Below, one piece after another: positions 1 to 22,639 of a stretch of 52,589 bases of DNA (the first letter of the stretch is position 1; the number at the start of each line of letters is the position of its first letter). The notes beneath the pieces were generated by a model. The model made no database searches. It was not told the origin of the DNA and saw nothing but the letters and a program-made list of their open reading frames with translations. Source of the DNA: Chrysophaeum taylorii. Lineage: Eukaryota > Sar > Pelagophyceae > Pelagomonadales > Pelagomonadaceae. The stretch lies in the NCBI GenBank assembly GCA_029834535.1, contig JAQMWT010000583.1, positions 1 through 52,589 of the forward strand. Direction: 5' to 3'. Both the position numbers and the translations under genes were made by a program.

Positions 1-633
1 GGTATGTCGAAGCAGAGAATCAGGGCGAGCAAGTACGTTGGGGGCCTTGGCGCGCGACGTTGTCGGGGCAGTGATGCACCCGGTGAAAGCAATTAGCACG
101 TTCTTTGGCATTGAGATATTCGGTGGATCCGTGTGCGAGGGACTTACGAGGATGGATGAGCGGGAATGTGCCGTTTGCGCCGAACATCGAACTTGAGTTC
201 GGTGTCTAAGGCAGTGAAGGCGGTGCGTTGTCATCCTGGTGCGCAGCAGGTCACTTGGAGGTGCATCCTCATTATCACGAGTAGCGAGAGTATCTTCGTA
301 GGACGAAGATATATAGTTTAACGACATTTCGGTCAAGCAGCTGCTGGAAATAGACATCATAAAAGACTGTGCCAAAGACAGATCGGCAACGAGAGCAAGG
401 TGCTTGTACAGAGTACTGTATTACCCAACGAGCCGTATTGCATGAGCATGTCAGCAAAGGTCATGGCGTAGAGACAAGAGGAAGTTCCTGTTGTTTGGTG
501 TGGTTGTTAGCACGAATCAACTCCGGTCAGGTGGGGTAGCGTAATTTCCCGTTGCAGGGGTCAGTAAAATGATATTGGCATACCCTCGGACGGTGGGCAA
601 TGGAGCATGCATGGAGTGGATTTAGAGCCGAGT
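1..633 (-). pseudogene. methyltransferase tail, linker and start of integrase, left copia copy
   Basis: This segment aligns with 15330-16078 of the plus-strand copy. It holds the stretch after the methyltransferase, a copy of the 21-bp SLNY motif at 314-334, and then the beginning of the integrase zinc-binding region. Compared with the plus copy it has an extra G in the CACCGGG stretch near 77-83. That changes the frame in which the His pair of the integrase zinc finger is read. The rest of integrase and RT lies outside the window. Confidence 0.75.
314..334 (-). other. 21-bp SLNY motif, site B of left copy
   Basis: Read on the minus strand, GACCGAAATGTCGTTAAACTA is identical to the site at 15739-15759. 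It lies between the methyltransferase region and integrase. Confidence 0.8.
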
Positions 634-2341
634 TGCGGTCTTCCACGAAGGTACCCTATATGCGACTATGAGATTAGTGGTGATCTTCCAGAGCAAAATG
701 AGAATCCTTGTAGTCGAATGTTGTCGGTGGCCTTGCAGGTAAGGCAGCCAGGCATCTGAAAGAGCTGGACAAGAGCTTTTGTATGGCAGTGTCATAGGTG
801 GCAGCGGGCAACTTGGGGAAGGGCTTGGACTAACTAACTAACTTCAGACCTCTCCCGAGCATGGGAGCCAGGCCGGACCGGCAGGAGCCGGTACGGAATC
901 ACAGAGGAAAATCACGCAGTTGGGGCAGAGCGACGGACGTGTTGGTCCACGAACAATCGACCTGTCCGTCGCGTTCTGCCCAACCGAGCGAACCCCATCC
1001 CAGCGCGGACTTTCCGGGTGCTAACCGGCCAGCCCGGGAGGCGAGCAGGGCTTGGACTATCCACAAGTAACCCATAAACGGCTCCAAATATATGGACCCG
1101 TCGCGGTCGCGGGGAATGTCGGAAGCAGTGAACGTATACGTGCTTCCAAACACGTCAATAGAAGCATGATATTTGGTGGTGGCGTTCTCTATGGTGAGGT
1201 TGCCGTCGGAATGGTGGCCACCAGTTAAGAAGTAGGAGTTGTGTGATGTTGATGAGGTTGTAAGTAATAACCTGTGTGACGGTTGGTTAGTTTCGAAAAC
1301 GGTTATGTAATAGGACACAGGAGTGGGTGAGTTAGTATGTAAGCTTGCGAACACGTTATAGAGGATTGTAAAAATCTTGGCGTGTATAGGATGTGTTGCA
1401 TTGGGTAATGGCTCCATAGAGGAGCGTTTAAAGCACAACTGATATTAAGTACACTCGGGTTGAACATAGTGAGTACGTTGCTCGTGAGCCTGTTGTGAGT
1501 GAAGGCGAAGTAGTAACATATTGAGGGATTCAAGGTCAGCCATAGTAAGCTGAACAGAACCTGTGCGAGAGTAAGGTGCGAACGTTTTAGGAACGGGGAT
1601 ATATGGTGGATCGGGGAACACCCGGATCCAGTCTTTGGATACGTGTTTAGGTAGCCAAAGGCGCTTGGGGATAGCTTGTAGATCATCTACGATCTTTAGG
1701 AAGGGGCGTGGATGGAGGATAGGCCACGACAATATTTTAATTGGTCCAGTAGAATACCTGCGTGTGATGCATATCCATCTTTCTCTAGATTGGTAGTCGC
1801 CACAGAGGTAGGTCGGGAGCCTATCAACAACATCGACACAGTAATCAAGCGTTGCATGAATAAGATTGGCCACTGTGATGTGGTCTTGATGACAGTACTT
1901 ATGTGGATGCGTCATCTCAGCCAGTAGTACCAAGGGCTGGAATAACTTGATGACGGACAACATGCTGTCGAAAAGAGAATCGTCCAGCAGGCTGTGTAAG
2001 TCTTCTGTCTTATGCTGTTTTAGTAAATTCCTGTTGGTGCAGGGAGGAGTGATCTCAATTATATCACATAGAATGTGCGCCTTTCCTCTGGTGAGATTAG
2101 GGAAGATGGTTAATAAAGGCGGGGAGAGATTCAAATAATAATACAGTAGGAAACGGTGGCGTAACATACGAACAAGCGTATCATCAGACTCAACAACAAC
2201 TTTTACATTGATATTTAAGCCTAAGTCATTAGTGGCTTGAGACAGGAACGCCGGAGTTGACAAACCAGAACAAAGTAACATGACAGAGGGTTTGCGGAGA
2301 TTGGACTCTTGTGAGAGAAACACTGGGCGTGAAAGTAGTCA
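634..2341 (-). pseudogene. C5 cytosine DNA methyltransferase domain, left copia copy (broken)
   Basis: This follows the in-frame TGA-CTA at 2341-2336. Motifs of the C5 methyltransferase family can be read in order. Motif I (MLLCSGLSTPAF) lies near 2262-2286, and the acidic ribose contact (VVVESDD) follows. The catalytic PPC has its Cys codon at 2039-2041. The Glu of motif VI is in LLAEM, and motif VIII (QSRERW) is near 1780-1793. Motif IX is read as LTCKATDNIRLQGF at 702-743. Motif IX falls in the same frame as the upstream part once the retroposon at 833-1046 and one copy of its 13-bp target duplication are subtracted (227 bp). Damage includes a TAA at about 1440, a TGA in the motif IX approach, and indels near 2130-2160. 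Confidence 0.82.
833..1046 (-). mobile_element. Retroposon (SINE-like or 5'-truncated LINE) inserted in the left copia copy
   Basis: The 214-bp insertion is flanked by a perfect 13-bp target duplication, agggcttggacta, at 820-832 and 1047-1059. Read on the minus strand it ends with a small hairpin (CTCCCATGCTCGGGAG), then GAGGTCTGAA and a (GTTA)n tail, the usual 3' end of a target-primed retroposon. Related copies lie at 9251-9618 and 22403-22639. It interrupts the methyltransferase sequence. Whether the family is a SINE or only the 3' end of a LINE cannot be told from these copies. Confidence 0.85.
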
Positions 2342-2480
2342 AGTTAATGGCTGCGTATTTTGCTGAACAAACTTGTTCTGTTTCCGAAGATTGAGAACCA
2401 AAGGGCGAATCCACGGCGATCTGGTAAAACTCTTTGGAGTAGGTAGTTGTAGTATGCCAGTAGATCCCTGTTTCATGGTA

Positions 2481-5098
2481 TCACTTGAGGGGAAATGCGA
2501 GGGAACGAAGTTCGAGTTGCTTGTCGCGAGCGATGTTGTAAGTGAGACAAGGGAGAGCAGGTAAATTAGCTGCTATGTAGTGTATGGGGATACGTACATC
2601 TTTGTCTATGCGGCTCGTGACAGCGCTGAGCTTTGGCTCAGCTCGATCATTGAACACAGTGGTCAGGTTCGTCTGGTTCCACTCGAGCATGCTCAGGATA
2701 GCGAGATGTCGGTCATGCACTGGCTGAAGACATAAAGCGAAGTCGATCTTAACATAGCCAACTTGTGGATGATCTGGTAGGGGAACAACAATGTTACGTG
2801 TTAACATCATGTGTGAGGCACGTTGCTGTCCTGTGGCCGTTTGAATAACAATCGGCGCATATTTGGAGTCCAGTGGAATTATGTGATTGGGTATTGCAAA
2901 ATCGTAAGTGGACATCAATGAGATGGTAGCACAAGAGTCAAAATATAGAAAAGAACAATGTGGAGGGACACTGTTTACCTTCATGTAGTTGGTGAGGAAG
3001 GCGTTTTCCGAATGTGGGCAAGTAGTGGAGAGTCTGGCGGTAAAGAAGTTCTTCAGCAATAACAGATTCGTTCGAATAATGATCGGTTGAATAGGTGGTG
3101 ATGGCTCGTCAGCCTCATCAGCCATGCCGTGCTTTTCGTCAAATGACGATAGAGAGGTGTGATCAGCATCCCTTTTGGTTTCGGCTTGTGACGGTAGGTT
3201 GAGGGCAGATTGGACCTGTGAAGATAGCGAGGACAATAACGCTGGTGGTAAAGCCGAGATGGCAGAAGCCGTAAAGAGGTTAGGCACGGTATTGTAAGGA
3301 TTACCCTGTGTGTTTGTAGTAGGAGGCGTTGCCTTTGGGGTGGGAGCAGTAACAACAGTATGGTGTTGTGGCTCCACGTAGTTTAACGACTTTTCGGTCG
3401 AGGATAGATGAACGTCTACATCATAAATGATGTCTTCTGCAAACATGAGCTGTTCGTTTAGACGAAGTAAACTACTGTTGTCCTCAGTAGATGTTGTTGA
3501 CAGGATATCGGCTGATTGTAGCAAAGTCTCAAATAACTTGTTGATATTATGTTGTAGCTGAGCCGTCGTATCATTATCTGTCACATGCTTCGTGAGTTCG
3601 CTACACTGTTCTCGCAGGGTGTTTAAGGTGTGGTTTGTTCGATCTAATAATTTCATGTTAGACCGAGAGGACCTGTCAAAAGTGCGGGGGTAAATTGGAC
3701 GGTCATGGGACTGTTTGGCAGTTTTCTTGGTGACGTAAGAATCACCAGGACGATAATACGATAAATCGCTGCGAGAGAAAGGCAGGCGAGCATCATTAGA
3801 GTTACGCAAGCGTCTAGCATTAAACGTGGAAGATGTACCAGGTTGGGACGAAGTGATGAAGGCGAGTGTGTTAGCAGTTTGAGTCAGACTTTTGTCCGAT
3901 GAGTCCAAAGTATGTGTAAGGAGTAACTTTGGCTTTGGTTGAGATGATAAACCTTCGACATAGGGTTGCCAAGAAACAGGGCGTTCTAAGCGTCTTTTGT
4001 TCGACCCATTTGATACTACATTGTATAGGTCTAATGCGTATTCTAAAATGTAGCTAGGGTTGGTAGGGTGACACAATCGTTCAGCTTCTGGCACAGGCCG
4101 AGATGAAGATCGGGTTTCATACATATAACACCAATCTACCCAACCACGATCGTAACGATTGTTGCTGGTATTATCGGCATAATGCCGATGTATCTCTTCA
4201 TAGATTTTTCTACAAAGAGTGCCAAAGTCGAATTGAAGGTCAGTCTCTTCCTGGTTAAGTTGGTAAGAGATTTGCCTAAATGCTAGGACAGCTTCGATAA
4301 ATACATGGACATACCAGTTAGGATTATAAACAACAGAGTTAAATTGCTGTTTCAAATAGGACACATCAGTAGTCGTAACAGACTCGTAGTGACTAAAGGC
4401 GATGAGCATAATGGCTCGAGCCTTGTTGGGTAAATAACTTTTGTCATATACCTCATTGATGGCGGGCCAGGCCGCAAGTGCTGGTTTTCCAACACTTTCA
4501 AGATTGAAGTAAGTATGCAAGAATGTAGCATACGTGTTCTGATAAGTGTGCCAGTCAGCAGCAGTTAACGAAAACATAGTAACAGGGGCACGAACACGGG
4601 TGTCGAAAGCTAATGCCTTCGGGTGCGCGCGATTTAAGATTCGTTCCTCTTCTAAGAAACGAGCGTTGATTTCAGGACGTAATGCCTTGACTTCATAGTC
4701 GTAACAGACGGTAGTTAGCTGAGCTACTTCTGCATCAGGTAAGTGGGGGAAAGCTTCGTTGGTGAAATGCCATTCCTGATACTCAGGGGGTAACTCATCA
4801 ACAGCTAAACGGAGATCAGCAGCCCTATCGGTCTTCCATTCCAGGAAAACGCGATCGAGAATTTGATTCCGGAGGATTTCGTAGTCCTTGCATGGCCGAG
4901 TATATGCTTCATACGAGTCGTACTCGAGGAAAGCATCGGCATGACTGGACCGTAACACTTGATTTGCAAGGATACCTTGCGAGTCTGAAGCTGAAATCGA
5001 TTTCCATCGTTAAGAAACTCAACTACAGGAGCTTCGAGCTTCAATATATCCGCACCTGTGATCGCCTTGGGTGCGGCTCGTGCTGCGTGTTCTGCCAT
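2481..5098 (-). pseudogene. gag-protease, left copia copy (broken)
   Basis: This is the structural protein fused to the aspartic protease. The probable start is the ATG at 5098. A 14-base deletion near 4960, relative to the other copy, breaks the frame, and from 4958 an 825-codon frame stays open. The gag part has no recognisable CCHC knuckle. It ends in a Ser-Leu-Asn-Tyr motif (3379-3399), and the protease follows with its active-site Asp in the string FDSCATISLMS, where copia proteases normally have DSG or DTG. A TGA at 2481-2483 replaces a CGA of the other copy. Two single-base deletions then follow, so the frame is lost before the methyltransferase part. Confidence 0.85.
3379..3399 (-). 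other. 21-bp SLNY motif, site A of left copy
   Basis: GACCGAAAAGTCGTTAAACTA on the minus strand is identical to 13090-13110 of the other copy. It sits between gag and protease. Confidence 0.8.
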
Positions 5099-5627
5099 AG
5101 CAGTTGACGGGAAACCGGTGGGTTCAGTCACGCAGTTGACACTGTCTAGACATTCCAAGGGGGTCTGTCTATCGGTGTCTATGTACACTCATCGATTTTT
5201 CGATGGAAAATGTGTCTATATGACGACTGTGCAAGCTGTGAGTCCAGAGTAGTGTCGCTAAGCGTAGTCAGTCAGGCAGCTGGTTAGTTTTGGTGCTCTC
5301 AAGGAGCTTGTTAAGTGCATTGCCATGGAATGTACGAGTGGACGTACCCAAAATATTCCATAACATGTGTGCAAGAGTACAGGTTAGCCAGTTACACACA
5401 CATCAACATTGACATGACACTACGATACTATGTATGAACAGGTGTACACAAGGTTACACGATCACGTGTGCAAAAAATGTATTATATACAGCCCAATAGT
5501 AATGGCGTTGTATTTACAAGTGTGTTTACGTGTCGAGGCTGAGCCGGCGCGGTAACGGCCCAATACCCATAGGTTACGTGCACGTTTTAACACATGGTTT
5601 CTCAGGGACCCGCCTGGGCCCATAACC

Positions 5628-5944
5628 TGCAGAGCATTAGCAAGCAGTGGTAAGTCACCTGGGAAACCATCCCGTCTCATCGTGAACGTCTGGAAGTATT
5701 TAATTCGGGGAATGAAAAAAAGGTATGTTCCCTATATCCTCAGAACACGACAGGCGGCATCTAGAACTACACGAAAAAGGTAAAGTGTATAGTGCTACAT
5801 ACCTCGGGACGCGCTAGACCATGATGATGAGCGTAGGCACAAATCAGAGGACTATTTGATTGTGTAGAAAGGAAGAAGAAGGGTAAGGAAGAGATCACGT
5901 TCTCAACGGACGGATAAGGGTAAGAGGCAGGAGATTTCTCTGCA
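5628..5944 (-). repeat. 5' LTR of left copia copy
   Basis: The LTR is 317 bp and is bounded by the 7-bp inverted repeat TGCAGAG...CTCTGCA, the same ends as the LTRs of the plus-strand copy. It aligns along its whole length with 10545-10857. The partner 3' LTR lies outside the window, so its age and target duplication cannot be judged here. Confidence 0.9.
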
Positions 5945-9173: not shown

Positions 9174-9695
9174 GACGTAGACGAGAGGCCCAACCTCGAT
9201 TCCCGCGTGAAGACGAGTGCGAAGCGTGAGAATATGACGACGTGTAGATAACTAACTAACTAACTTCAGACCTCTCCCGAGCATGGGAGCCAGGCCGGAC
9301 CGACAGGAGCCAGTCCGGAATCACGGGCCTGTAGACGAGGGGCGCCGGAAGGTGGGTCGGCGGAGAGTGATCATCAAGCTTGTCGCCATGCGACGAGGAG
9401 ACCGCGATGTGACTGACAACCAACTCGTCGATAACCTTCCGTCTGCGCCCCCCGGCCATACCCCGTCCCACTGCGAACGTTCCAGCTGCCAACCGGCCCG
9501 CCCGAGAGGCGAATAGGTGCCAACCTACGCCGGGAGGGCGGATGCCCTCGCAAGGCTCAGGATTCATGAGGCACCGTCCTCCATCGCAACCATGCGGTCG
9601 GCGATCAGGGAAAAAAAAGACGTAGACGAGAGGCCCAACCTCGATTCCCGTGTGAAGACGAGTGCGAAGCGCGAGAATATGACGACGCGTAGATA
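9174..9695 (-). mobile_element. Retroposon copy 2 with 77-bp flanking direct repeats
   Basis: 9174-9250 and 9619-9695 are a 77-bp direct repeat with about three mismatches. The 368 bp between them hold a member of the retroposon family at 833-1046: on the minus strand it ends in the same hairpin, GAGGTCTGAA and (GTTA)n tail. A run of eight A bases touches the right-hand repeat. The simplest reading is an insertion with an unusually long target duplication. A frame at 9256-9804 crosses both repeat and insertion and is not a gene. Confidence 0.7.
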
Positions 9696-10477
9696 GTGTT
9701 GCAATAGCACGCGGAATCGTGTTCCCCAAGGTTGCGGCTGAGACGAGGCAGCTAACAGCATGCACACCAGGCGACGCTGGTTGACGACCTCGATTGTGCA
9801 GCAAAAACAGAGCCTGACGTCGTGACCCTCGACGATAATTACCGGTGCCTCGATGTCCTCGCAGCAGCGCGACTCGAGTTTGGTTAGATGCGGCGCGACT
9901 CCAGAGCGAGATCGATTATCTCGACAACACCTGGGAACAGGTCGGCTCAGAGGCCGTATCGCATCCTGCGCAGAAGTTTCCGCTAACCGTCTTCCCGTAA
10001 GAGCCGCGCTCCTCGACGGCAATGTTTACGATCACTGTGGAAATGTTTCAAACAAACGACTCGAAATTCCGTTGAGCAGTCAAAGTTGCGAATGCAATCG
10101 TGTACAAGTCTGACCGCCGCTCTGTGGACCTGGGGTTCTAACTTGCTTGGTTGCCGGATCGTCGGGGCGCTCGCTTGGTCGCCGTTATGGTCTAGCTTGG
10201 GCACTTGCCGACGGCGCTTTTTCGACTAGCGCAACCTCACACTGCGTCCTGTGCTTCGGTGGCGATTAAAAGGGCGCGGCTGTGCGCGGAGTCGGGGAAG
10301 ACGAGCTGGTCCAATCAAGCCAAAACCATGTGGCAATTTTATGATTGATTTGATTTTTGAGTTGACTATGCATTGGCATATATTATCACGCTATCGGTGT
10401 GTCGTGCGGTGCCGTCGCATGACGCAGAGAACTGCTTGAGCATCTGCTCTAGTGCCTGGCTTGTGAAACGCTGGATA
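9696..10477. other. Spacer without a supported gene
   Basis: No recognisable coding region, RNA gene or repeat was found here apart from the left member of the 58-bp repeat that begins at 10478. Confidence 0.5.
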
Positions 10478-10535
10478 GGATTTAGTGAAGGATGAGGAAT
10501 TCGAACATGTTTACATTCATCCAAGTGAGTATGTT
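10478..10535 (+). repeat. Left member of 58-bp direct repeat flanking the copia element
   Basis: This matches 22340-22397 at 55 of 58 positions. It ends 9 bases before the 5' LTR, while the right member starts exactly at the base after the 3' LTR. Confidence 0.85.
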
Positions 10536-10544
10536 TCGAACGTG

Positions 10545-10857
10545 TGCAGAGAAATCTGCTGCCTCTTACCCTTATCCGTCCGTTGAGAACGTGATCTCTT
10601 CCTTACCCTTCTTCTTCCCTTCTACACAATCAAATAGTCCTCTGATTTGTGCCTACGCTCATCATCATGGTCTAGCGCGTCCCGAGGTATGTAGCACTAT
10701 ACACTTAACCTTTCTCGTGTAGTTCTAGATGCCGCCTGTCGTGTTCTGAGGATATAGGGAACATAACCTTCATTCCCCGAATTAACCTTTCCAGACGTTC
10801 ACGATGAGACGGGATGGTTTCCCAGGTGACTTACCACTGCTTGCTAAATGCTCTGCA
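10545..10857 (+). repeat. 5' LTR
   Basis: The LTR is 313 bp and starts TGCAGAG and ends CTCTGCA. It contains the putative promoter and polyadenylation region, but I cannot point to a certain TATA box. Confidence 0.92.
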
Positions 10858-11378
10858 GGTTATGGGCCCAGGCGGGTCCCTGAGAAACCATGTGTCAACA
10901 TGCACGTAACCTATGGGTATTGGGTCGTTACCGCGCCGACCTAGCCTCGACATGTGACACGCTTGTCAATATATCGCCATTACCATTGGGCTGTATATAA
11001 TATCTTTTTGCACACGTGATCGTGTAACCTTGTGTGCACCTGTTCATAGCATCGTATTGCCATGTTAATGTTGATGTGTGTGTAGTTGGCTAACCTGTAC
11101 TCTTGCACACATGTTATGCAATATTTTGGGTACGTCCACTCGTACATTCCATGGCAATGCACTTAACAAGCTCCTTGAGAGCACCAAAACTAACCAGCTG
11201 CCTGACTGACTACGCTTAGCGACACTACTCTGGACTCACAGCTTGCACAGTGGTCATATAGACACATTTTCCATCGAAAAATCGATGAGTGTACATAGAC
11301 ACCGATAGACAGACCCCCTTAGAATGTCTAGACAGTGTCAACTGCGTGACTGAACCCACAGGTTCCCCGTCAACTGCT
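10858..11378 (+). other. Element leader between LTR and gag
   Basis: This is 521 bp of non-coding leader, mirrored at 5099-5627 in the left copy. A TGGGCCCAGGCGGGT stretch begins 5 bases after the LTR where a primer-binding site should lie. I could not match it to a tRNA 3' end with confidence. Confidence 0.6.
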
Positions 11379-13089
11379 ATGGCAGAACACGCAGCACGAG
11401 CCGCACCTAAGGCGATCACAGGTGCGGATATATTGAAGCTCGAAGCTCCTGTAGTTGAGTTTCTTAATGAGGGCAACCGCTTTCAGCTTCAGAACCGCAA
11501 GGTATCCTTGCAAATCAAGCATATCAAGCAATTACTACGGTCCAGTCATGCCGATGCTTTCCTCGAGTACGACTCGTATGAAGCATATACTCGGTCATGC
11601 AAGGACTACGAAATCCTCCGGAATCAAATTCTCGATCGCGTTTTCCTGGAATGGAAGACCGATAGGGCTGCTGATCTCCGTTTAGCTGTTGATGAGTTAC
11701 CCCTGAGTATCAGGAATGGCATTTCACCAACGAAGCTTTCCCCCACTTACCTGATGCAGAAGTAGCTCAGCTAACTACCGTCTGTTACGACTATGAAGTC
11801 AAGGCATTACGTCCTGAAATCAACGCTCGTTTCTTAGAAGAGGAACGAATCTTAAATCGCGCGCACCCGAAGGCATTAGCTTTCGACACCCGTGTTCGTG
11901 CCCCTGTTACCATGTTTTCGTTAACTGCTGCTGACTGGCACACTTATCAGAACACGTATGCTACATTCTTGCATACTTACTTCAATCTTGAAAGTGTTGG
12001 AAAACCAGCACTTGCGGCCTGGCCCGCCATCAATGAGGTATATAACAAAAGTTATTTACCCAACAAGGCTCGAGCTATTATGCTCATCGCCTTTAGTCAC
12101 TACGAGTCTGTTACGACTACTGATGTGTCCTATTTGAAACAGCAATTTAACTCTGTTGTTTATAATCCTAACTGGTATGTCCATGTATTTATCGAAGCTG
12201 TCCTAGCATTTAGGCAAATCTCTTACCAACTTAACCAGGAAGAGACTGACCTTCAATTCGACTTTGGCACTCTTTGTAGAAAAATCTATGAAGAGATACA
12301 TCGGCATTATGCCGATAATACCAGCAACAACCGTTACGATCGTGGTTGGGTAGATTGGTGTTATATGTACGAAACCCGATCTTCATCTCGACCTGTGCCA
12401 GAAGCTGAACGATTGTGTCACCCTACCAACCCTAGCTACATTTTAGAATACGCATTAGACCTTTACAATGTCGTATCAAATGGGTCGAACAAAAGACGCT
12501 TAGAACGCCCTGTTTCTTGGCAACCCTATGTCGAAGGTTTATCATCTCAACCAAAGCCAAAGTTACTACTTACACATACTTTGGACTCATCGGACAAAAG
12601 TCTGACTCAAACTGCTAACACACTCGCCTTCATCACTTCGTCCCAACCTGGTACATCTTCCACGTTTAATGCTAGACGCTTGCGTAACTCTAATGATGCT
12701 CGCCAGCCTTTCTCTCGCAGCGATTTATCGTATTATCGTCCTGGTGATTCTTACGTCACCAAGAAAACTGCCGGACAGTCCCATGACCGTCCAATTTACC
12801 CCCGCACTTTTGACAGGTCCTCTCGGTCTAACATGAAATTATTAGATCGAACAAACCACACCTTAAACACCCTGCGAGAACAGTGTAGCGAACTCACGAA
12901 GCATGTGACAGATAATGATACCACGGCTCAGCTACAACATAATATCAACAAGTTATTTGAGACTTTGCTACAATCAGCCGATATCCTGTCAACGACATCT
13001 ACTGAGGACAACAGTAGTTTACTTCGTCTAAACGAACAGCTCATGTTTGCAGAAGACATCATTTATGATGTAGACGTTCATCTATCCTC
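11379..13089 (+). pseudogene. gag of copia element (one-base frameshift)
   Basis: This is a structural capsid-type protein. The likely ATG at 11379 gives a product starting with MAEHAARAAPKAITGADI. A one-base deletion in a C run at about 11704 (acccc here, accccc in the left copy) breaks the frame. It is then open again from before 11912 through the protease. The latter part has a heptad-like helical stretch (residues around the LLDRTNHTLNTLREQ string). No CCHC zinc knuckle was found. The module ends at the SLNY site at 13090-13110. The family is assigned from position and from the downstream protease rather than from a gag motif. Confidence 0.78.
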
Positions 13090-13110
13090 GACCGAAAAGT
13101 CGTTAAACTA
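13090..13110 (+). other. SLNY site A (gag | protease)
   Basis: GACCGAAAAGTCGTTAAACTA encodes T-E-K-S-L-N followed by Y, in frame with gag-protease. It is one of five near-identical copies in this element. Confidence 0.8.
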
Positions 13111-14152
13111 CGTGGAGCCACAACACCATACTGTTGTTACTGCTCCCACCCCAAAGGCAACTCCTCCTACTACAAACACACAGGGTAATCCTTCCAATAC
13201 TGTGCCTAACCTCTTTACCGCTTCCGCCATCTCGGCTTTACCACCAGCATTATTGTCCTCGCTATCTTCACAGGTCCAATCTGCCCTCAACACACCATCA
13301 CAAGCCGAAACCAAAAGGGATGCCGATCATACTTCGCTATCGTCATTTGACGAAAAGCACGGCATGGCTGATGAGGCTGACGAACCATCACCACCTGTTC
13401 AACCGATCATTATTCCAACGAATCTGTTATTGCTGAAGAACTTCTTTACCGCCAGCCTCTCCACTACTTGCCCACATTCGGAAAACGCCTTCCTCACCAA
13501 CTACATGAAGGTAAACAGTGTCCCTCCACATTGCTCTTTTCTATATTTTGACTCTTGTGCTACCATCTCATTGATGTCCACCTACGATTTCGCAATACCC
13601 AATCATATAATTCCATTGGACTCCACATACGCTCCGATTGTTATTCAGACGGCAACAGGACAACAACGGGCATCACACATGATGTTAACACGCAACATCG
13701 TTATTCCCCTACCAGATCATCCACAAGTTGGCTACGTTAAGATCGACTTCGCTTTATGTCTTCAACCAGTGCATGACCGACATCTCGCTATCCTGAGCAT
13801 GCTCGAATGGAACCAGACCAATCTTACCACCGTGTTCAACGATCGAGCTGAGCCAAAGCTCAGCGCTGTCACGAGCCGCATAGACAAAGATGTACGTATA
13901 CCCATACACTATGTAGCAGCTAATTTACCCGCTCTCCCTTGTATCACTTACAACATCGCGCGCGACAAGCGGCTGGAACTTCGCTCCCTTGCATTTCCCC
14001 TCAAGCGATACCATGAAAACAGGGATCTACTGGCATACTACAATTACCTACTCCAACGAGTTTTACCAGATCGGCCGTGGATTAGCCCTTTGGTTCTCAA
14101 TCTTCGGAAACAGAACAAATTTGTTCAGCAAAATACGCAGCCATTAACTTGA
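13111..14152 (+). CDS. Retrotransposon aspartic protease module
   Basis: This module cleaves the element polyprotein. It is the continuation of the open gag frame and ends at a TGA (14150-14152). The active-site Asp is at 13550-13552 in the string YFDSCATISLMS. Copia proteases have DSG or DTG followed by A-S/T, so the third residue here is Cys instead of Gly. The left copy has the same Cys, so it is a family feature rather than decay of one copy. A Pro/Ser-rich linker precedes the domain. About 190 residues follow the active site up to the stop. The next codons continue in the same frame into the methyltransferase. Confidence 0.8.
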
Positions 14153-14155
14153 CTA
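14150..14155 (+). promoter_or_regulatory. Candidate stop-codon readthrough site (TGA CTA)
   Basis: The gag-protease frame ends in TGA followed directly by CTA, and the same frame then runs into the methyltransferase (PVFLSQESNLRKPSVMLL). The left copy has the same TGA CTA at 2341-2336. UGA-CUA is a known leaky stop context in plant and animal viruses and in some cellular genes. Readthrough here is inference. Confidence 0.5.
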
Positions 14156-15738
14156 CTCGCACGGCCAGTTTTTCTCTCACAAGAGTCCAATCTCCGCAAA
14201 CCCTCTGTCATGTTACTTTGTTCTGGTTTGTCAACTCCGGCGTTCCTATCTCAAGCCACTAATGACTTAGGCTTAAATATCAATGTAAAAGTTGTTGTTG
14301 AGTCTGATGATACGCCTGTTCGTATGTAACGCCACCGTTTTCCTACTGTACTATTATTTGAATCCCTCCCCGCCTTTATTAACCATCTTCATCTAATCTC
14401 ACCAGAGGAAAGGCGCACATTCTATTGTGATATAATTGAGATCACTCCTCCCTGCACAAACAGGAATTTACTAAAACAACAAAAGTCGGAAGACTTACAC
14501 AGCCTGCTGGACGATTCTCTTTTCGACAGCATGCTGTCTGTCATCAAACTACTCCAGCCCTTGGTACTACTGGCTGAGATGACGCCTCCGCATAAGTACT
14601 GTCACCAAGACCACATCACAGTGGCCAACCTTATCTATGCGACTCTTGATTACTGTGTCGATGTTGTTGATAGGTTCCCGACCTACCTATGTGGCGACTA
14701 CCAATCTAGAGAAAGATGGATATGCGTCGCACGCAGATATTCTACTGGACCAATTAACCTATCATCGTGGCCCATCCTCCATCCACGCCCCTTCCTAAAG
14801 ATCGTGAATGATCTACAAGCTATTCCCAAGCGCCTTTGGCTACCTAACCACATATCCAAAGACTGGATCCGGGTGTTCCCCGATCCTCCATACATATCCA
14901 TTCCTAAAACGTTTGCACCTTACTCTCGCACAGGTTCTGCTCAGCTTACTATGGCTGACCTTGAATCCCTCAATATGTTACTAGGTCGCCTTCACTCACA
15001 ACAGGCTCACGAGCAACGTACTCACTCTGTTCAACCCGAGTGTACTTACCATCAGTTGTGCTTTAAACGCTCCTCTATGGAGCCATTACCCAATGCAACA
15101 CATCCTATACACGTCAAGATTTTTACAATCCTCTATAACGTGTTTGCAAGCTTACATACTAACTCACCCACTCCTGTGTCCTATTACATAACCGTTTTCG
15201 AAACTAACCAACCGTCACACAGGTTATTACTTACAACCTCATCAACATCACGCAACCCCTACTTCTTAACTGGTGGCCACCATTCCGACGGCGACCTCAC
15301 CATAGAGAACGCCACCACAAAAAAAATCCACTCAATGCTTGCTCCATTGCCAACCGTCCGAGGGTATGCCAATATTATTTTACTCGATCCTCGCAACGGG
15401 AAATTACGCTACCCCACTCGACCGGAGTTGATTCGTGCTAACAACCACACCAAACAACAGGAATCTTTCCTCTTGTCTCTACGCCATGACCTTTGCTGTG
15501 ACATGCTCAGCAATGCTCTGCCTGCCGGTACGTATAGCACTCTGCACAAGCACCTTTCGCTCATCGTCGCCGATATTAAATCCCTTATGTTGGACCCTAC
15601 CTTCCAACATACTGCTGCCGTGACGAAGAAATCCTATGTATCCAATTTCATGACCGTTGACCAAGCCTCCACCACGTGCAGCACAGATCCCTTGTCTTTG
15701 GCACAATCTTTTATGATGTCTATTTCCAGCAACTGCTT
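14153..15738 (+). pseudogene. C5 cytosine-specific DNA methyltransferase domain within pol
   Basis: It would transfer methyl groups from S-adenosylmethionine to cytosine C5 in DNA. Family motifs are in the right order. Motif I MLLCSGLSTPAF starts at about 14210. VVVESDD holds the acidic ribose contact. ITPPCTNRN has its catalytic Cys codon at 14453-14455. LFDSMLSVIKLLQPLVLLAEM contains the Glu of motif VI at about 14575. Motif VIII is YQSRERWICVARR at 14699-14730. A long variable, target-recognition-like stretch follows. Motifs IX-X are missing because about 300 bp are deleted near 15320; the left copy still has RLQGF. A TAA near 14326 breaks this copy. The domain lies between protease and integrase, where copia elements normally have nothing of this size. 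Confidence 0.85.
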
Positions 15739-15759
15739 GACCGAAATGTCGTTAAACTA
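15739..15759 (+). other. SLNY site B (methyltransferase | integrase)
   Basis: GACCGAAATGTCGTTAAACTA encodes T-E-M-S-L-N then Y, in the same reading frame as site A. Confidence 0.8.
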
Positions 15760-17460
15760 TATATCGTCGTCCTACGAAGATACTCTCGCTACTCGTGATA
15801 ATGAGGATGCACCTCAAAGTGACCCTGCTGTGCACCAGGATGACGACGCACCGCCTTCCACTGCCTTAGACACCGAACTCAAGTTCGATGTTCGGCGCAA
15901 ACAGCACATTCCCGCTCATCCATTCCTCGTAAGTCCTCGCACACGGATCCACCGAATATCTCAATGCCAAAGAACGTGCTAATCGCTTTCACCGGTGCAT
16001 CACTGCCCCGACAACGTCGCTGCCAAGGCCCCCAACGTACTTGCTCGCCCTGGATTCTCTGCTTCTGACATACCATATCGCGACTTATGCACCGACTGCA
16101 TCGCACACAACAAGCGCCACCCGCACAAGCATTTCAATGCGACCAAGCCTTCTTTTGAGCAAACCCACAAAGCCGGTGAAGTCTGGGCGTGCGACGGCGG
16201 CTATGTGACCATCCCATCCGAATGGGAGGCTTCACACATATCATCGTCTTCAAGGAACTCATTTCGAAATTTCTCTTGGTGTACTTTACACGCACCACCA
16301 ACGCCACGGAGTTCACTCAAGCTCTGGATTTTGTGTATGACTTCTGTCGTACACAACTCAATGTGCACATGCGCACCCTCTACTCCGATGCATTCAAGCC
16401 TTACTTTAGCCAGCACATTACCTCCCCGTACCGCGTCGATAAGGGCATTCAACTCATTGCCTTCCCGCCGTACATGCACCACTTTAACTTTGAAGTTGAG
16501 TCTGCCATCGGTTTCATCGCCTCCGCCTCCTCAACTCGCCTTCGTTCTCTCCTTAATGCTCACTATCGTGGCGCCAAGATCGTGGAACCCGCTATCATGT
16601 TCCCATGGGCGGTGATACACACCGTTCAAAGCTATAACCTTCTCCCGAACGCCACGCTCGAGCGCATTCATCATGCTATTCTGAGTCCGCAACAGCTACT
16701 CTACAACCAACTCAGCACTCCCCAACACGATATGCTCAAGATTTTTGGCGCTGAATGTTACCTCCTATTGGAGCCCCATGAACACCACAAGTGGGAACCG
16801 TGCCGCCGCAAATATCTGTATCTCTGTTGCGCCAACGCACAAAACCCGCTCGTCTCCCCACGCGTCGACCATCTCGCTGACGTCGTCCTCAACCCTGAAA
16901 ACGGACAAATTCGTGTTTCGTCCAAGCTGCAATTCCTCTACATGTTGCAGCATCCTACTCCTGATCCTGAACTAGCTCCTCCGCCACACGCTCCTTCCGC
17001 GCCTTTCTCGCTCACACCCCACACCACTATGCAAGACCATGTCATTCAGAGGGGGACAACTCTCATCCTCAGAGGGGGCACTCCCCACCTCCTTCAGCTC
17101 CTCCTTCTTCGTCCCCTACTCCGGCCTCTTCTCCATCTTCTGACGCTACCGCCGACGAATCTGGCTCTATGTCACCGCCGCCCTTGCTTCCTTCTTACAA
17201 AGACCTTTTTGCACAAGATGACCTCATTCTTGTCCCAGGTTCCAAACAGCCCAACACCCGCAAGGCCACTTCTATGAAAACTATCCGAGCCCGGTTACAA
17301 GCGTCTACTATTGGTGCTTACAAAGCCGCTGGTGGCAAGCTCGCCGATTTCCGCTGGGATCTTCGCCACCACTTTCTTACGTTCAAGTCTCCCGCCCTCT
17401 CCGCCCTTCATCTCCGTGGTGGTATCCTCTGGTCTGCTATCTGCTCAGAGGGGAACATGC
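15760..17460 (+). pseudogene. Copia integrase (broken)
   Basis: This is the DDE integrase that would insert the element cDNA. The N-terminal zinc region shows His residues near FHR/HHC at 15985-16010 and CTDC at about 16090. The catalytic triad can be read as the Asp of WACDGGYV (about 16190), the Asp of LYSDAFKPYF (about 16388) and the Glu of NFEVESAIGF (about 16498). The third motif lacks the usual N-G-x-x-E-R pattern. A TAA at 15980 and a frame change at about 16220-16230 break it. The C-terminal part carries the copia-type segment with NPLVSPRVDHLADV, followed by a Pro/Ser-rich linker towards RT that changes frame again near 17040-17460. Confidence 0.85.
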
Positions 17461-17461
17461 G

Positions 17462-19789
17462 TTGTTAGCTCGTCTTCTTCTCCCGTTGCGCACTGACTTA
17501 CTTGCCCGCTACCCGCACGTCGATGGTTACTTCGCCCACGCCAAGTGCGCATCCAGCATCCCAGCTGCAACCTTTTTAACTGCTGATGGTTCACCTACGT
17601 GCCCTATTCCTCAGCCCCTTTTATCTGCGTTCACTGAACACGCTGCTGCCTTCGGCACTTCTTCCTTACAATATGCACTTACGTACCTGGCGCCGACCAG
17701 CTTTATTGATCACAACTCATCCGAGTTTGGCGCTACTTCTGCATCTCTGGCTGACTTGGAGGAATACCTTCTGGTCTCTACAGAGTTTATCACCCAGGTC
17801 TTACGTACCGACCCTACTATCCATATCCAACTGGAATCTGCCCCTACTACTCCTACTGACGCTGTTTCCGCTTATCCCGAAGTTGCGCACACTGCCTCGA
17901 CCGCAACGTCGCTAAACTATAATTCACCAGCCACTGTTGGTCCTGACGAATATAAGGTCCAAGAAGCGGACGTTTCCATTGACGAATATAAACTTAAGTG
18001 CCTCCACGGTTTGTCGCCTGAAAACAGGCACGCCTACCTCAAGGCCATCGCCAAGGAACTCCACGACATTATCCGCTTTGGCTGCTTCAAACTTTCCTTA
18101 CCCGACGGTGTCTCTCGTCCTATTGACAGCAAGATGGTGCTGAAGATTAAAACAGACTCTGCAGGCAAATACGTTAAGCACAAGGCTCGCCTCGTACTAC
18201 GTGGCTTCCTAGCATCTCTTGGCGCCGATTTCTTTGGTACCTTCAGCCCCATGGCCACTATGACCGCAATCCGGGTACTACTAGCTATTGCAGCATACAA
18301 GCAATTGCCTGTCTACCATGCAGACGTCCCGAACGCCTTCGTTCAGTCTGACATCGATGCCAATGTCTATGTTCAGTTACCAGACGGCATCAAGCTTATC
18401 GACCCCGATGACGCTAAGTACAAGGGCCGACGTCTACCGAAACTGCTGAAGTCACTTTATGGACTTCGGCAATCACCATCCCTTTGGAACAAAGAGATAG
18501 ACGGCTTCTTCCGTAGCCTTGGTTACAAACGCCTGCATTCGGACTCTTGCCTATATGCTCGAGTATCCGCACATGCTAAGTTCGTCGTATGCAGTCTGTC
18601 TGTAGACGACATTGTTATTGTGTCCAATGACGACCCTCTTCGTACTGAATTACAGGATGCCCTCCACAAACGGTATGCTGTAGAGCAGTTTGAACCTGTC
18701 CATACCCTCCTAGGCATGCGTGTGTGTCGCACATCTGACGGCTCCATTTCTCTGGATGTGCAAGCCAAGCTGGATGAACTCTTCGCTGATCACCCAGTCT
18801 TGCAGCAACTGACCCCGCTTAAATATCCTATGTCATCGTCCTTCAAGTATAAAGATGGCACTCCCAGCACTGAAACAGAGTTGTACATCAACTCGCACTT
18901 TGCCACCCTCCTTGGCAAGCTGGTGTTCATGCAAGTTGCCTGCAGACCTGACTTCTCGCAAGCCTTGGGCAGATGTTCGCGTGGTATGCATGCACCCACA
19001 TATGTTCACGTCCAAATGCTAGAGCATTTGCTTCGCTACCTCAAGAAGCCGGAAAACCGCTCACTTCGCCTCTGGTTTCACCCTAAAGGTAATGCCATTG
19101 AAGCTCACCTTCGCACTGTCTCCGCTAATCGAATTGATCTATCCACTGTGGTCGACTACCAACCACAGGATGTATCTACTGGACAGTTTGACCCCTTAGT
19201 TGCCATGGTTGACGCTGACAATGCCCCTTCCTTAGCACAGGAAGATAGGAAATCTACCACCGGGTTTGTCTTCTATCTTTTCAACTGCCTTATTGGTTGG
19301 AAAAGCAAACTTCAACCGATTGTCTCCTGCTCAACTCACGAAGCTGAGTTGATTGCCCTCAGTATTTGTGCTGATGAAGCTGTTTGGCTACGCAAGCTGC
19401 TGTTGGAACTCTCCTTTGTCGTCAACCCCACCTTCTACGTCAACAATGCTAATGGTGAGAACACCGCTGACCCTGTTGACTTCGATGACAATGACAACCC
19501 AATTGCTGAAGATATGCGCTTCATCAGAAGCCTACCTCTCTTGTCTGACAATGCTGCCGCTGTTCACACCTCTAATAACCCAGATGGGTCCTCTCGATCC
19601 AAGGCACTGTCGACCAGATGGTTTAAAATCCGTGAGTACATATCGCTTCAGAAAATACGAGTCCATCATGTTCCCGGCAAGCTGAACGTGGCGGATGGTT
19701 TTACAAAGCCACTTGCTGCTGAGTTCTCCACCTTTCGCTCTCTACTCGGTATGCATCATGCCTCTGACGACAATCCTTTACAGGATTGA
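17462..19789 (+). CDS. Copia reverse transcriptase and RNase H
   Basis: This 775-codon open frame was part of a polyprotein; it opens on TTG and has no start of its own. The first 145 residues are linker. The SLNY site C follows at 17899-17919, then RT. RT motifs include KHKARLVLRGF, TFSPMATMTAIRVLLAIA, YHADVPNAFVQSDI (first Asp), LYGLRQSPSLWNKEI and LSVDDIVIVSND at about 18600. The catalytic pair is SVDD where most copia elements have YVDD. RNase H follows with the Asp of EDRKSTTGFVFYLF (about 19243), STHEAELIAL, LSDNAAAV and HHVPGKLNVADGFTKPL. The frame ends at TGA 19787-19789, right after the RNase H end. Confidence 0.93.
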   Translation: MLARLLLPLRTDLLARYPHVDGYFAHAKCASSIPAATFLTADGSPTCPIPQPLLSAFTEHAAAFGTSSLQYALTYLAPTSFIDHNSSEFGATSASLADLEEYLLVSTEFITQVLRTDPTIHIQLESAPTTPTDAVSAYPEVAHTASTATSLNYNSPATVGPDEYKVQEADVSIDEYKLKCLHGLSPENRHAYLKAIAKELHDIIRFGCFKLSLPDGVSRPIDSKMVLKIKTDSAGKYVKHKARLVLRGFLASLGADFFGTFSPMATMTAIRVLLAIAAYKQLPVYHADVPNAFVQSDIDANVYVQLPDGIKLIDPDDAKYKGRRLPKLLKSLYGLRQSPSLWNKEIDGFFRSLGYKRLHSDSCLYARVSAHAKFVVCSLSVDDIVIVSNDDPLRTELQDALHKRYAVEQFEPVHTLLGMRVCRTSDGSISLDVQAKLDELFADHPVLQQLTPLKYPMSSSFKYKDGTPSTETELYINSHFATLLGKLVFMQVACRPDFSQALGRCSRGMHAPTYVHVQMLEHLLRYLKKPENRSLRLWFHPKGNAIEAHLRTVSANRIDLSTVVDYQPQDVSTGQFDPLVAMVDADNAPSLAQEDRKSTTGFVFYLFNCLIGWKSKLQPIVSCSTHEAELIALSICADEAVWLRKLLLELSFVVNPTFYVNNANGENTADPVDFDDNDNPIAEDMRFIRSLPLLSDNAAAVHTSNNPDGSSRSKALSTRWFKIREYISLQKIRVHHVPGKLNVADGFTKPLAAEFSTFRSLLGMHHASDDNPLQD
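17899..17919 (+). other. SLNY site C (integrase | RT)
   Basis: GACCGCAACGTCGCTAAACTA encodes T-A-T-S-L-N then Y, in frame with RT and located just before the RT domain. Confidence 0.8.
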
Positions 19790-20197
19790 AGATGCCTAAC
19801 CCTAGTGACCGCAACGTCGTTAAACTAGCAAACTAGCCCTGGCCCTACCTTCTTTTGCCACATTTTTTTGTACGTGTCGTGTGAGTGTCACTCATGTCTT
19901 TTTCTTGGCACTCCCGTGGCCGTGGCCGTGGCATCTCTCCAGTCGTTCGAAGGACAATTCCACGCTCGCTCTCCACGGCCGAGCCTTCTCCCAAGTTGGT
20001 TCACAAGCGACAACCCATAACCACTGTCACTCCTACTACCTCCCAGGCTGCTACTGTTTCACCGACACCAGCTGAGCCTGTTTTACTACAATCCTAACAT
20101 TCCAGGATGGCCTCAACATGGATTTTACCCTGATTGAACGAGGATTCTCTCTTTTGAGAGCTTCCGTACTCCTGCTACGCCCTTTCTCTCTTCTGTT
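19790..20197 (+). other. Spacer between RNase H and extra ORF, with SLNY site D
   Basis: 19808-19828 (GACCGCAACGTCGTTAAACTA) is the fourth copy of the 21-bp motif. It is identical to site C except for one base, but its SLN codons are in a different frame from RT and end in TAG. A short basic frame with Arg-Gly repeats (19885-20097) lies in the spacer. Several stops interrupt all frames, so this part has probably decayed. Confidence 0.6.
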
Positions 20198-21871
20198 ATG
20201 CGAGCGGAAATCTCTACGGCACTCAACTCGATATATGAATCTGCTGACTCTTTACTGTTTGTGGAACTTACGACCTTCATATCTATGCGCCTACCCATTA
20301 CTACATTTTGGGAAGCTGCTCCTGCTATTACTTCTATTGGCTGCTACAGAGGCCCCAAACGTGAACGTTTCATCCTGTCATCCTATTGTACGCAGTGTCT
20401 CAACGACTTAGGACAGCCTACATTTCTTGCTTCTACCACATATAATTCGAAGTCACAAGCACCTAGTGAACTCCCCACTGAAGTACTGAGTCACCTCAAC
20501 ACAGATGACCACAAGAAGAATGGTCATATTCCCATCTCAACTATCACCACTAACATTTGTTGTGCTTGTCACAACACCGATCAGGCGCCCATACAACCTA
20601 ACGTATGTGCACGTAATGCTACTTCCTTCCAACCCTCCTGTAATGGGTGCTCAGCCGGTCATATACGCGCAACCATCATACGCACGTATCATTTGCCAAA
20701 GGAGCTACATGTTCTCTTGACCAGAAATCTAACGCAACACTCGTCACTTGCTCATTTAGTCTTATCAGTAACCGATGCAGCCACAGACTCCACTACTCAA
20801 TTACCATTGGCACTGGATCTTCGGCTTATTACTCAGATGCACCTGGAGCATCTTAACTTTCTTGTAACGCTCGAGCGAACACAAGCTCGTAAAACTCAGG
20901 CTATGTTCAAGCCCACCAAATACCACCATGTGATTCATACTGTTATCCAATCGTGGGTACAACACCTTGACGACTACGTATCATCCTCAGACGATACAAA
21001 GCCGCCATCACTCTTGAATGTAATGTTCGGTTCCACCTATACTTCGGCCGAACGTCAAGACTTTCTGCACTTCCTAAACACGAAATACCCCTCACTTGCA
21101 CAGCATGTGTTGACCGAAATGTCATCTAACTACTCACTTCCCTCATCAGAATCTACTCTGGAAATGTCTTCGCCATCGACACACCCTGCTCCTTCTGCCT
21201 CGCCTGATGATGTCGATGCAATGCGTCAACAAGTCGAACAACTCCAGGAAACTCTTCGCCTATATATTCGCAAGGTCAACACCCTTAGCGCTGAAAATCT
21301 ATCTCTGCACACAGATCTACAGGCAGCCATTGCTTCAATTACCTCCCTGGAAAACCGGCTCTTTCCTCCTACAGCCAATGCACACGTGCTGCTTGTAACA
21401 CTGTTCAAGATCACAGAGCTACTGTCTCGCTTAACGCTAACAGCTCATGATCAATATGCCGCCAACCATTCCTCCACGGACGATCACCTCCATCATCTGC
21501 GTGATAAGTTGCTCTCGCGTATTCAAAGCATTCCCTTCGCATGTGAATCGGAAGACTCTTCTATCTTCTCGGATCCGTTCGCTGAGTCCAACTTCTTGGA
21601 AAACCGACTGGACACACAACAACTTGACTCACTAGTGCCATCCCTACTGAATGCTTTACTTGCACTCACGTTTCGTATGGTACCACACCACTCTACTATT
21701 GGCGTTCACCGCCTGACAGCAGAAGCTGACGAAGACGATACCGATATCCTCGAACCAGTAACGTCCACTACCTCAGATAGCTTTAACACACTGTCTGTCG
21801 TACCTGTGTTTCGTAATGCTCTGTTCAAAAGCGTCAAGTCGACTCTCAGCTCCACCAAGTCCAAGCCCTAA
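20198..21871 (+). CDS. Extra element ORF downstream of RNase H: Cys-rich and coiled-coil protein
   Basis: The 557-residue frame with an ATG start is in the same reading frame as gag-protease and RT. Residues about 65-155 hold Cys pairs (YCTQC, CCACH, CNGC) of zinc-ribbon character. At 21112-21132 a diverged SLNY motif (T-E-M-S-S-N-Y) splits the protein. Beyond it, residues about 345-400 form a clear coiled coil (MRQQVEQLQETLRLYIRKVN and following), then a helical, acidic tail. Copia elements of the usual kind end with RNase H. Some plant elements carry an env-like ORF here, but this one has no signal peptide or membrane segment. Function unknown; it may be a nucleic-acid-binding or second structural protein. 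Confidence 0.75.
   Translation: MRAEISTALNSIYESADSLLFVELTTFISMRLPITTFWEAAPAITSIGCYRGPKRERFILSSYCTQCLNDLGQPTFLASTTYNSKSQAPSELPTEVLSHLNTDDHKKNGHIPISTITTNICCACHNTDQAPIQPNVCARNATSFQPSCNGCSAGHIRATIIRTYHLPKELHVLLTRNLTQHSSLAHLVLSVTDAATDSTTQLPLALDLRLITQMHLEHLNFLVTLERTQARKTQAMFKPTKYHHVIHTVIQSWVQHLDDYVSSSDDTKPPSLLNVMFGSTYTSAERQDFLHFLNTKYPSLAQHVLTEMSSNYSLPSSESTLEMSSPSTHPAPSASPDDVDAMRQQVEQLQETLRLYIRKVNTLSAENLSLHTDLQAAIASITSLENRLFPPTANAHVLLVTLFKITELLSRLTLTAHDQYAANHSSTDDHLHHLRDKLLSRIQSIPFACESEDSSIFSDPFAESNFLENRLDTQQLDSLVPSLLNALLALTFRMVPHHSTIGVHRLTAEADEDDTDILEPVTSTTSDSFNTLSVVPVFRNALFKSVKSTLSSTKSKP
21112..21132 (+). other. SLNY-like site E inside extra ORF
   Basis: GACCGAAATGTCATCTAACTA differs from site B at 3 of 21 positions and encodes T-E-M-S-S-N then Y, in frame, between the Cys-rich and coiled-coil halves. 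Confidence 0.65.
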
Positions 21872-22020
21872 GACACCCTGTTACACTCTTGATGCCTCTT
21901 ATGTGACCTCTGAGACCATCAAGACTGTATTCTCCTTCCTTTCTTTTTTTCTTTCTTTCTTCTTCATCATCATCTTTCTCAAGAGATGCTCTACAGTCGC
22001 ACCTTGCGCTTAAGACATCT

Positions 22021-22028
22021 CGAGGGGG
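22021..22028 (+). other. Polypurine tract
   Basis: cgaggggg lies directly before the 3' LTR, the expected primer for plus-strand synthesis. Confidence 0.75.
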
Positions 22029-22339
22029 TACAGAGAAACCTGCTGCCTCTTACCCTTATCCATCCGTTGAGAATCTCTTCCTTACCCTTTCTTCTTCCTT
22101 TCTACACAATCAAATAGTCCTCTCATTTGTGCCTACGCTCATCATCATGGTCTAGCGCGTCCCGAGGTATGTAGCACTATACACTTAATAACCTTTCTCG
22201 TGTAGTTCTAGATACCGCCTGTTATGTTCTGAGGATATAGGGAACATAACCTTCATTCCCCGAATTAACCTTCCAGACGCTCACGATGAGACGGGATGGT
22301 TTCCCAGGTGACTCACCACTGCTTGCTAAATGCTCTGCA
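22029..22339 (+). repeat. 3' LTR
   Basis: The LTR is 311 bp and aligns end to end with 10545-10857. It starts TACAGAG (one change from TGCAGAG) and ends CTCTGCA. Confidence 0.92.
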
Positions 22340-22397
22340 GGATTTAGTGAAGGATGACGAATTCGAACATGTCTACATTCATCCACGTGAGTATGTT
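22340..22397 (+). repeat. Right member of 58-bp direct repeat
   Basis: It begins at the first base after the 3' LTR and matches 10478-10535 with three mismatches. Confidence 0.85.
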
Positions 22398-22402
22398 CCT
22401 GC

Positions 22403-22639
22403 AGGTTCGCAGTGGGACTGGGTATGGCCGGGTGGCACAAACGGAGCGTTATCGACGAGTTGGTTGTCGGTCACGTCGCGGTCTCCGCGTCGTATGGCGA
22501 CAAGCCTGATGATCACTCTCCGCCGACACCCCTTTCGGCGCCCCTTGTATACAGACCCCGGTGATTCTGGACCGGCTCCTGTCGGCCTGGCCAGGCTCCT
22601 ATGCTTGGGAGAGGTCTGAAGCAAGTAAGTAAGTAAGTT
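22403..22639 (+). mobile_element. Retroposon copy 3
   Basis: This is a plus-strand member of the family at 833-1046 and 9251-9618. It has the terminal hairpin-like sequence, GAGGTCTGAA and an (AAGT)n tail. It directly abuts the 58-bp repeat beside the copia element. No target duplication of its own was seen. Confidence 0.7.

Follow-up and report, generated by a model that had tools for sequence, protein, structure and literature searches.

A divergent C5 cytosine methyltransferase domain after a conserved in-frame TGA in Ty1/copia retrotransposons of the alga Chrysophaeum taylorii

The window analysed here is a stretch of 52,589 nucleotides from the pelagophyte alga Chrysophaeum taylorii (contig JAQMWT010000583.1 of assembly GCA_029834535.1), and it carries two copies of a Ty1/copia long terminal repeat (LTR) retrotransposon with a domain in its pol region that resembles C5 cytosine methyltransferases (MTases). 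The right copy lies on the + strand and spans 10545..22339 between its outer LTR ends; the element is present a second time, as a partial copy on the − strand (249..5944), which is related to the first through inverted repeats I1, I2, I3, I6, I8, I9 and I12, at 94–97%. As read from the sequence, the right copy encodes, in order, gag-protease (11379..14149; MAEHAARAAP at 11379, protease DSCATIS at 13544-13576), a TGA followed by CTA (TGA at 14150..14152), the MTase domain (14153..15610, delimited by motif sequences, profile comparison and alignment of copies), integrase (15983..17277; CxxC at 16082-16114, core WACDGGY at 16184-16204, SH3-like part) and reverse transcriptase (RT) with RNase H (17222..19789), all on the + strand, and the MTase motifs are under selection. 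The RT is of the copia type (PF07727, RVT_2, E = 5.3e-42), integrase stands ahead of it and LTRs are present, as in Ty1/copia elements and not as in a gypsy or DIRS backbone.

The original prediction, made from the letters of the window alone, had placed a C5 MTase between the protease and integrase of this element, and the motifs that it named in the right copy are present at 14207-14719 on the + strand. These are motif I, VMLLCSGLSTPAF (14207-14245); motif II, VVVESDD (14291-14311); motif IV, EITPPC (14438-14455), with the catalytic Cys of PPC at 14453-14455; motif VI, LLAEM (14567-14581); and motif VIII, YQSRERW (14699-14719). The left copy repeats motifs I–VIII on the − strand, within 2284-1775, in a 297-amino acid open frame (1445..2338) that includes one stretch unlike all relatives. 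The assumption that the window copies are intact was not borne out. The MTase of the right copy is broken by a TAA at 14327-14329 and has a deletion of about 0.33 kb of its target-recognition region near 15323-15333, while in the left copy about 25 residues before motif IV are unlike all relatives, as after a frameshift, and the frame is interrupted further on. The target region of the copia MTase is about 300 amino acids long. Beyond it, on the + strand of the right copy, lie a probable motif IX, GKLRYPTRPELIRA (15398-15439), and a probable motif X, MLSNALPAGTYSTLHKHL (15503-15556), which fall in the right register against known MTases with a weak profile score (7%, versus at most 0.4% in 20 shuffles). 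A stretch of the left copy proposed earlier as motif IX, LTCKATDNIRLQGF (702-743, − strand), was rejected; it belongs to the decayed part of that copy, and open copies read differently there.

Several lines of sequence evidence make us highly confident that the domain is a member, if a very divergent one, of the C5 MTase family. When a profile of the window family was compared in hhalign with a profile of eight annotated MTases from phages and plasmids, the match reached 91.4% (E = 9e-7), with motifs I–VIII in register; 20 column-shuffled references gave at most 0.5% and a reversed reference gave 0.1%. The Pfam profile PF00145 did not match either window copy even at E = 1, and it gave no match to the genomic copy L031, whose pol frame is open. 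This counts against the assignment, and the lack of such a match in the window had been named in advance as a reason to abandon it. We nevertheless hold the miss to be overruled, because two distant relatives, P0002 and P0003, score 23.0 and 27.0 bits, above the curated cut-off of 22 bits. P0001, a transcript product from MMETSP, falls just under the cut-off (20.2 bits), the genomic copy L053 lies under it (12.8 bits), and P0004, a short piece, gave no match.

P0001 was the sole relative found in a protein search with L031 (42% identity over 352 residues). P0002 (E = 2.7e-91), P0003 (E = 1.6e-30) and P0004 (E = 2.4e-3) were recovered afterwards, with a profile built from P0001, L053 and the left copy of the window. 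The residues invariant in P0001, P0002, P0003, L053 and L031, four of which are 29–33% identical to the first, fall mostly in motifs I, II, IV, VI, VII and VIII, and include the catalytic Cys, the Glu and two Arg. The record of P0003 is labelled Cyanobium, and by eye its open reading frame (ORF) has a DTGA protease-like stretch upstream of the MTase; it is probably a stray eukaryotic retrotransposon contig placed in the wrong metagenome bin. Other searches were negative. NCBIfam returned nothing for P0001 or L031, PDB sequences searched with just the window family gave no match, and no relative was confirmed in the bacterial/archaeal and viral contig collections. With the divergent relatives as query, HhaI headed the PDB results (E = 0.12), but DARPins scored equally well and the match was not significant. 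HhaI, HaeIII, DNMT1 and DNMT5, all members of PF00145, have motifs I, II, IV, VI and VIII in the same order as the copia MTase and provided the best rows of a second, structural look. The copia MTase departs from C5 DNA MTases in having PC-Thr and A-E-M where they have PCQ and ENV. That the resemblance reflects chance, or an unrelated Rossmann-type domain, is scarcely credible given relatives that pass the Pfam cut-off, a profile match with its controls and the retention of the catalytic residues.

Related MTases are abundant in the genome. In the 70,800,356 bases searched (697 contigs), the left window MTase found at least 133 places and P0001 at least 80 more, non-overlapping ones; one element, on contig C481, was counted twice, so that at least about 212 places remain. 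This figure is a minimum, since scoring was limited to the best candidates. Their position relative to RT is consistent. Among 150 scored RVT_2 places (of 1670 candidates), 54 have an MTase place 1–5.5 kb upstream on the same strand, at a median of 3385 bases, and none has one upstream on the opposite strand or downstream. In L031 a single pol frame of 1691 amino acids holds MTase, integrase and RT (its protease part is interrupted), which supports the earlier proposal that the enzyme is made together with integrase and RT.

The domain is under purifying selection, to judge from substitutions between copies. The ratio of nonsynonymous to synonymous substitution (dN/dS), pooled over motifs I–VIII, is 0.109 for 10 copies and 0.150 for 36 places, compared with 0.234 for integrase (10 copies) and 0.181 for RT (8 copies). 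It is looser in the target-recognition region (0.241 for 9 copies, 0.340 for 35 places), and for motifs IX–X it is 0.129 in the smaller set and 0.253 in the larger. All 36 distinct places keep the catalytic Cys, the Glu of motif VI and the two Arg of motif VIII; these places are mostly the best-scoring ones and thus biased toward conservation, and three of them have an internal stop within motifs I–VIII. Copies without the PPC Cys or the motif VIII RxR, which would have spoken against the original prediction, were not seen among these 36. These figures bear on the idea that the domain kept the MTase fold, lost methylation and now serves Pol in a structural or nucleic-acid-binding role. Motifs IV and VI do deviate from the family pattern at positions other than the catalytic ones, and single copies lack a Pfam match. 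A purely structural role sits poorly, however, with four catalytic residues kept in 36 of 36 places and invariant in the five relatives as well, and we regard it as improbable.

The junction before the MTase is also conserved. In the right copy of the window, gag-protease and MTase-integrase-RT share one frame, with a single TGA between them. Across the subfamily of the window we compared 35 places (41 alignments minus five repeated fetches and one second alignment; copy L033 failed to align at the junction and lies outside this count). The TGA is present in 34 of them, the exception, L018, having lost it through a three-base deletion, and in 27 of the 35 the stop is followed by CTA. In a second subfamily, whose MTase is 48% identical, all 22 places examined, of 80, have an in-frame TGA, followed by CGC in 21 and by CAC in one. 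The frame was followed by translation in the right window copy and in these 22, and by local alignment, mostly gap-free, in the other 34. A single in-frame stop is thus conserved at the position where gag-pol readthrough would place it. TGA CTA is the human consensus context for readthrough and TGA CGC is not; the consensus is human and may not be that of the alga. The window subfamily has a Met just before motif I. Between the stop and motif I of the second subfamily there is none (0 of 22), so that a fresh ATG start is unlikely there. Together, these patterns make it likely that the TGA is a readthrough stop between Gag and Pol and that Pol begins with the MTase.

The same genome holds further MTase-bearing elements. 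A second copia lineage, lineage B, is represented by 56 matches with the profile span typical of it, ten of which were read (L043–L052). PF00145 matches two of its copies at E = 1.1e-9 and 2.4e-8. Its MTase lies between protease and integrase, without a stop before it in L052, and its pol runs on to a copia RT (RVT_2, E = 9.8e-39, in L058). With the MTase of the window family (lineage A) it aligns at 97.5% in profile comparison (E = 8.3e-12 over 282 columns), and the two lineages are 38% identical in RT and 26% in integrase. One old capture followed by divergence would fit these relations, though the C-terminal parts of the two MTases have no profile match (0.2%). Searched with lineage B, the phage collection gave an archaeal-virus DNA methyltransferase as best match (E = 3e-5); PDB gave an uncharacterised protein (E = 0.1), a C5 MTase (0.28) and HhaI (0.29); and of the 8000 candidates scored in the protein database none matched at E = 1.

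A gypsy lineage, C, occupies about 58 places, after two of 60 rows were set aside as second pieces. In the one copy read, L057 on contig C235, the PF00145 match (23.5 bits) is confined to the motif I end and lies ahead of an RVT_1 RT. The lineage C profile reaches 81.4% against reference MTases and shows no sign of kinship with the copia MTase (0.4%). The genome also encodes a Dnmt2-like protein (L041, contig C634) and a 2086-amino acid frame that combines an MTase with SNF2, the make-up of DNMT5 (L042/L068, contig C621); both are probably host MTases. The copia MTase shows no support for a profile match to the Dnmt2-like protein (0.7%) and a weak one to the DNMT5-like protein (17.8%).

The right copy has further features of an LTR element. 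Its 5′ LTR (10545..10857, + strand, TGCAGAG...CTCTGCA, ends read off the sequence) and its 3′ LTR (22029..22339, + strand, with a purine run just upstream) are 93.75% identical over 320 aligned columns, 10 of which are gaps. Directly 3′ of the 5′ LTR lies a putative primer-binding site, GGTTATGGGCCCAGGCGGG (10858..10876, + strand). Copia primes from a half of the initiator transfer RNA (tRNA), and GGTTATGGGCCCAGG after the 5′ LTR would be complementary to the anticodon arm or half of that tRNA. The gag-protease frame has a break near 11700. The integrase frame is also broken, and its SH3_retrovirus match (E = 5.8e-5) falls below the Pfam cut-off, as do weak rve matches in L031 and L055. RNase H was assigned by eye from STHEAELIALS (19331-19363).

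An extra ORF of 577 amino acids (20138..21871, + strand) with a Cys-rich stretch separates RNase H from the 3′ LTR; Pfam gave no match for it at E below 0.02. Just outside the LTRs a 59-bp direct repeat (94.9%; 10477-10535 and 22339-22397) is much longer than a usual target-site duplication. A dispersed repeat at 9325-9478 and 22405-22558, the two mutually inverted, reads ASRAGRLA... in one frame; a similar reading occurs in the left copy and in L032. This repeat is found beside and inside these elements. At gathering scores Rfam had no match to the window.

We propose that a Ty1/copia element captured a C5 MTase long ago and that the enzyme became the first domain of Pol. Most ribosomes would stop at the TGA and yield Gag-protease, and a minority would read through to make Gag-Pol, so that the MTase would be packed into the particle with integrase and RT. 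There it could methylate cytosines of the new complementary DNA (cDNA) or of newly integrated DNA; the marked copy may then be tolerated or silenced instead of destroyed, with the host DNMT5-type enzyme maintaining the mark. We give this explanation as a whole a probability of roughly 0.6. Self-methylation as the selected role of the enzyme, taken by itself, we hold to be possible, at somewhat under even odds.

Base composition offers a partial view of such methylation. The observed/expected ratio of CpG is 0.91 in both window elements, against 1.32–1.35 in three stretches of the window presumed to be host DNA. Across codon boundaries C|G stands at 0.73–0.90 in four copia pol frames, compared with 1.25 for a pool of six frames presumed to be host genes, while T|G (1.08–1.35 versus 0.68) and C|A (1.28–1.37 versus 0.90) are raised; the gypsy frame has a C|G of 1.00. 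This mild depletion fits past CpG methylation, with the caveat that element and host are not alike in base composition. C/T differences between copies lend it little support, since they are barely concentrated at CpG (0.104 per C in CG, 0.071 in CA, 0.083 in CC and 0.098 in CT). The copies were also searched for a strong CpG mutation signature, without success; this, like the Pfam miss in the window copies, weighs against our proposal.

C5 MTase folds include RNA enzymes such as Dnmt2, and the target might be RNA, either the genomic RNA of the element or its primer tRNA. The unclear mutation signature would suit such a role, as would the replacement of the motif IV Gln of PCQ by Thr and of ENV by AEM, and an RNA-directed role has been suggested for SymbioLINE-Dnmt (PMC5890265). 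Yet the Dnmt2-like protein of the genome has no profile likeness to the copia MTase, and copia lineage B does have the Gln (TLPCQ), so that we consider an RNA target unlikely. The enzyme might instead act on host defence, viruses or rival elements, or slow its own element, rather than mark its own copies. Transposon-borne MTases are discussed in such terms in PMC5890265 and PMC6338049, and three MTase-bearing lineages share this one genome; nothing found here indicates a target other than the element, and we rate this option as rather improbable. Marking of its own copies remains the reading we prefer. A much wider scenario is doubtful: that a single capture of the copia MTase preceded the split between the two copia lineages, that UGA readthrough in one of them makes the enzyme as the leading domain of Pol, that three MTase-bearing lineages (two copia, one gypsy) are spread over some hundreds of places, and that copies mark themselves with 5-methylcytosine which host DNMT5 maintains, so that much of the methylome would be set by parasites.

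MTase-bearing retrotransposons are known from other algae. De Mendoza and others (PMC5890265) describe MTases in Symbiodinium long interspersed nuclear elements (LINEs) and DIRS elements and in a Klebsormidium gypsy element, with de novo CG methylation shown for some, and a review (PMC6338049) mentions gypsy and DIRS elements with methylases in stramenopiles. One of the closest cases, KnitGypsy-Dnmt3 of Klebsormidium nitens (PMC5890265), is likewise an LTR element with a C5 MTase within Pol, key residues kept and purifying selection. It differs in being Ty3/gypsy with a Dnmt3 enzyme, whereas the element described here is Ty1/copia, with an MTase that follows a TGA between protease and integrase and lies, in single copies, beyond the reach of Pfam. 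SymbioDIRS-Dnmt3 and SymbioLINE-Dnmt of Symbiodinium (PMC5890265) resemble the present case in numbering hundreds of retrotransposon-borne, intronless MTases of several lineages in one alga; the former are DIRS elements with a tyrosine recombinase and the latter LINEs, whose MTases form an orphan lineage, in contrast to the LTR copia elements here.

According to a passage in a 2025 paper (PMC12344493), “LTR Copia and DIRS” elements carry DNMT3; it so names a copia element with a DNMT, and gives no alga, structure or sequence. It cites the 2018 work (PMC5890265), whose LTR case is gypsy, and may be a slip or a further case. In the open-licence PMC literature, searched mostly by titles and the starts of abstracts, we found no pelagophyte or other heterokont alga with an MTase-bearing copia element, and the main text of the Chrysophaeum taylorii genome paper (PMC10366177) contains no word beginning “transpos”. 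The Ty1/copia class differs from the published LINE, DIRS and gypsy cases, which would fit an independent capture.

What appears to be new within the literature searched, beside the known MTase-bearing LINE, DIRS and gypsy elements, is the place of an MTase between the protease and the integrase of a Ty1/copia element, together with the conserved stop before it and three MTase-bearing lineages in a heterokont genome. Hosts silence transposons by cytosine methylation, and an element that keeps an MTase under selection raises the question of what it gains, a question that the 2018 report (PMC5890265) left open for LINE, DIRS and gypsy elements. The conserved stop ties the enzyme to Pol in the particle, and with it the idea that cDNA is marked in advance becomes testable. 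The Nanopore and PacBio reads made for the Chrysophaeum taylorii assembly (PMC10366177) might answer part of this question without new sequencing.
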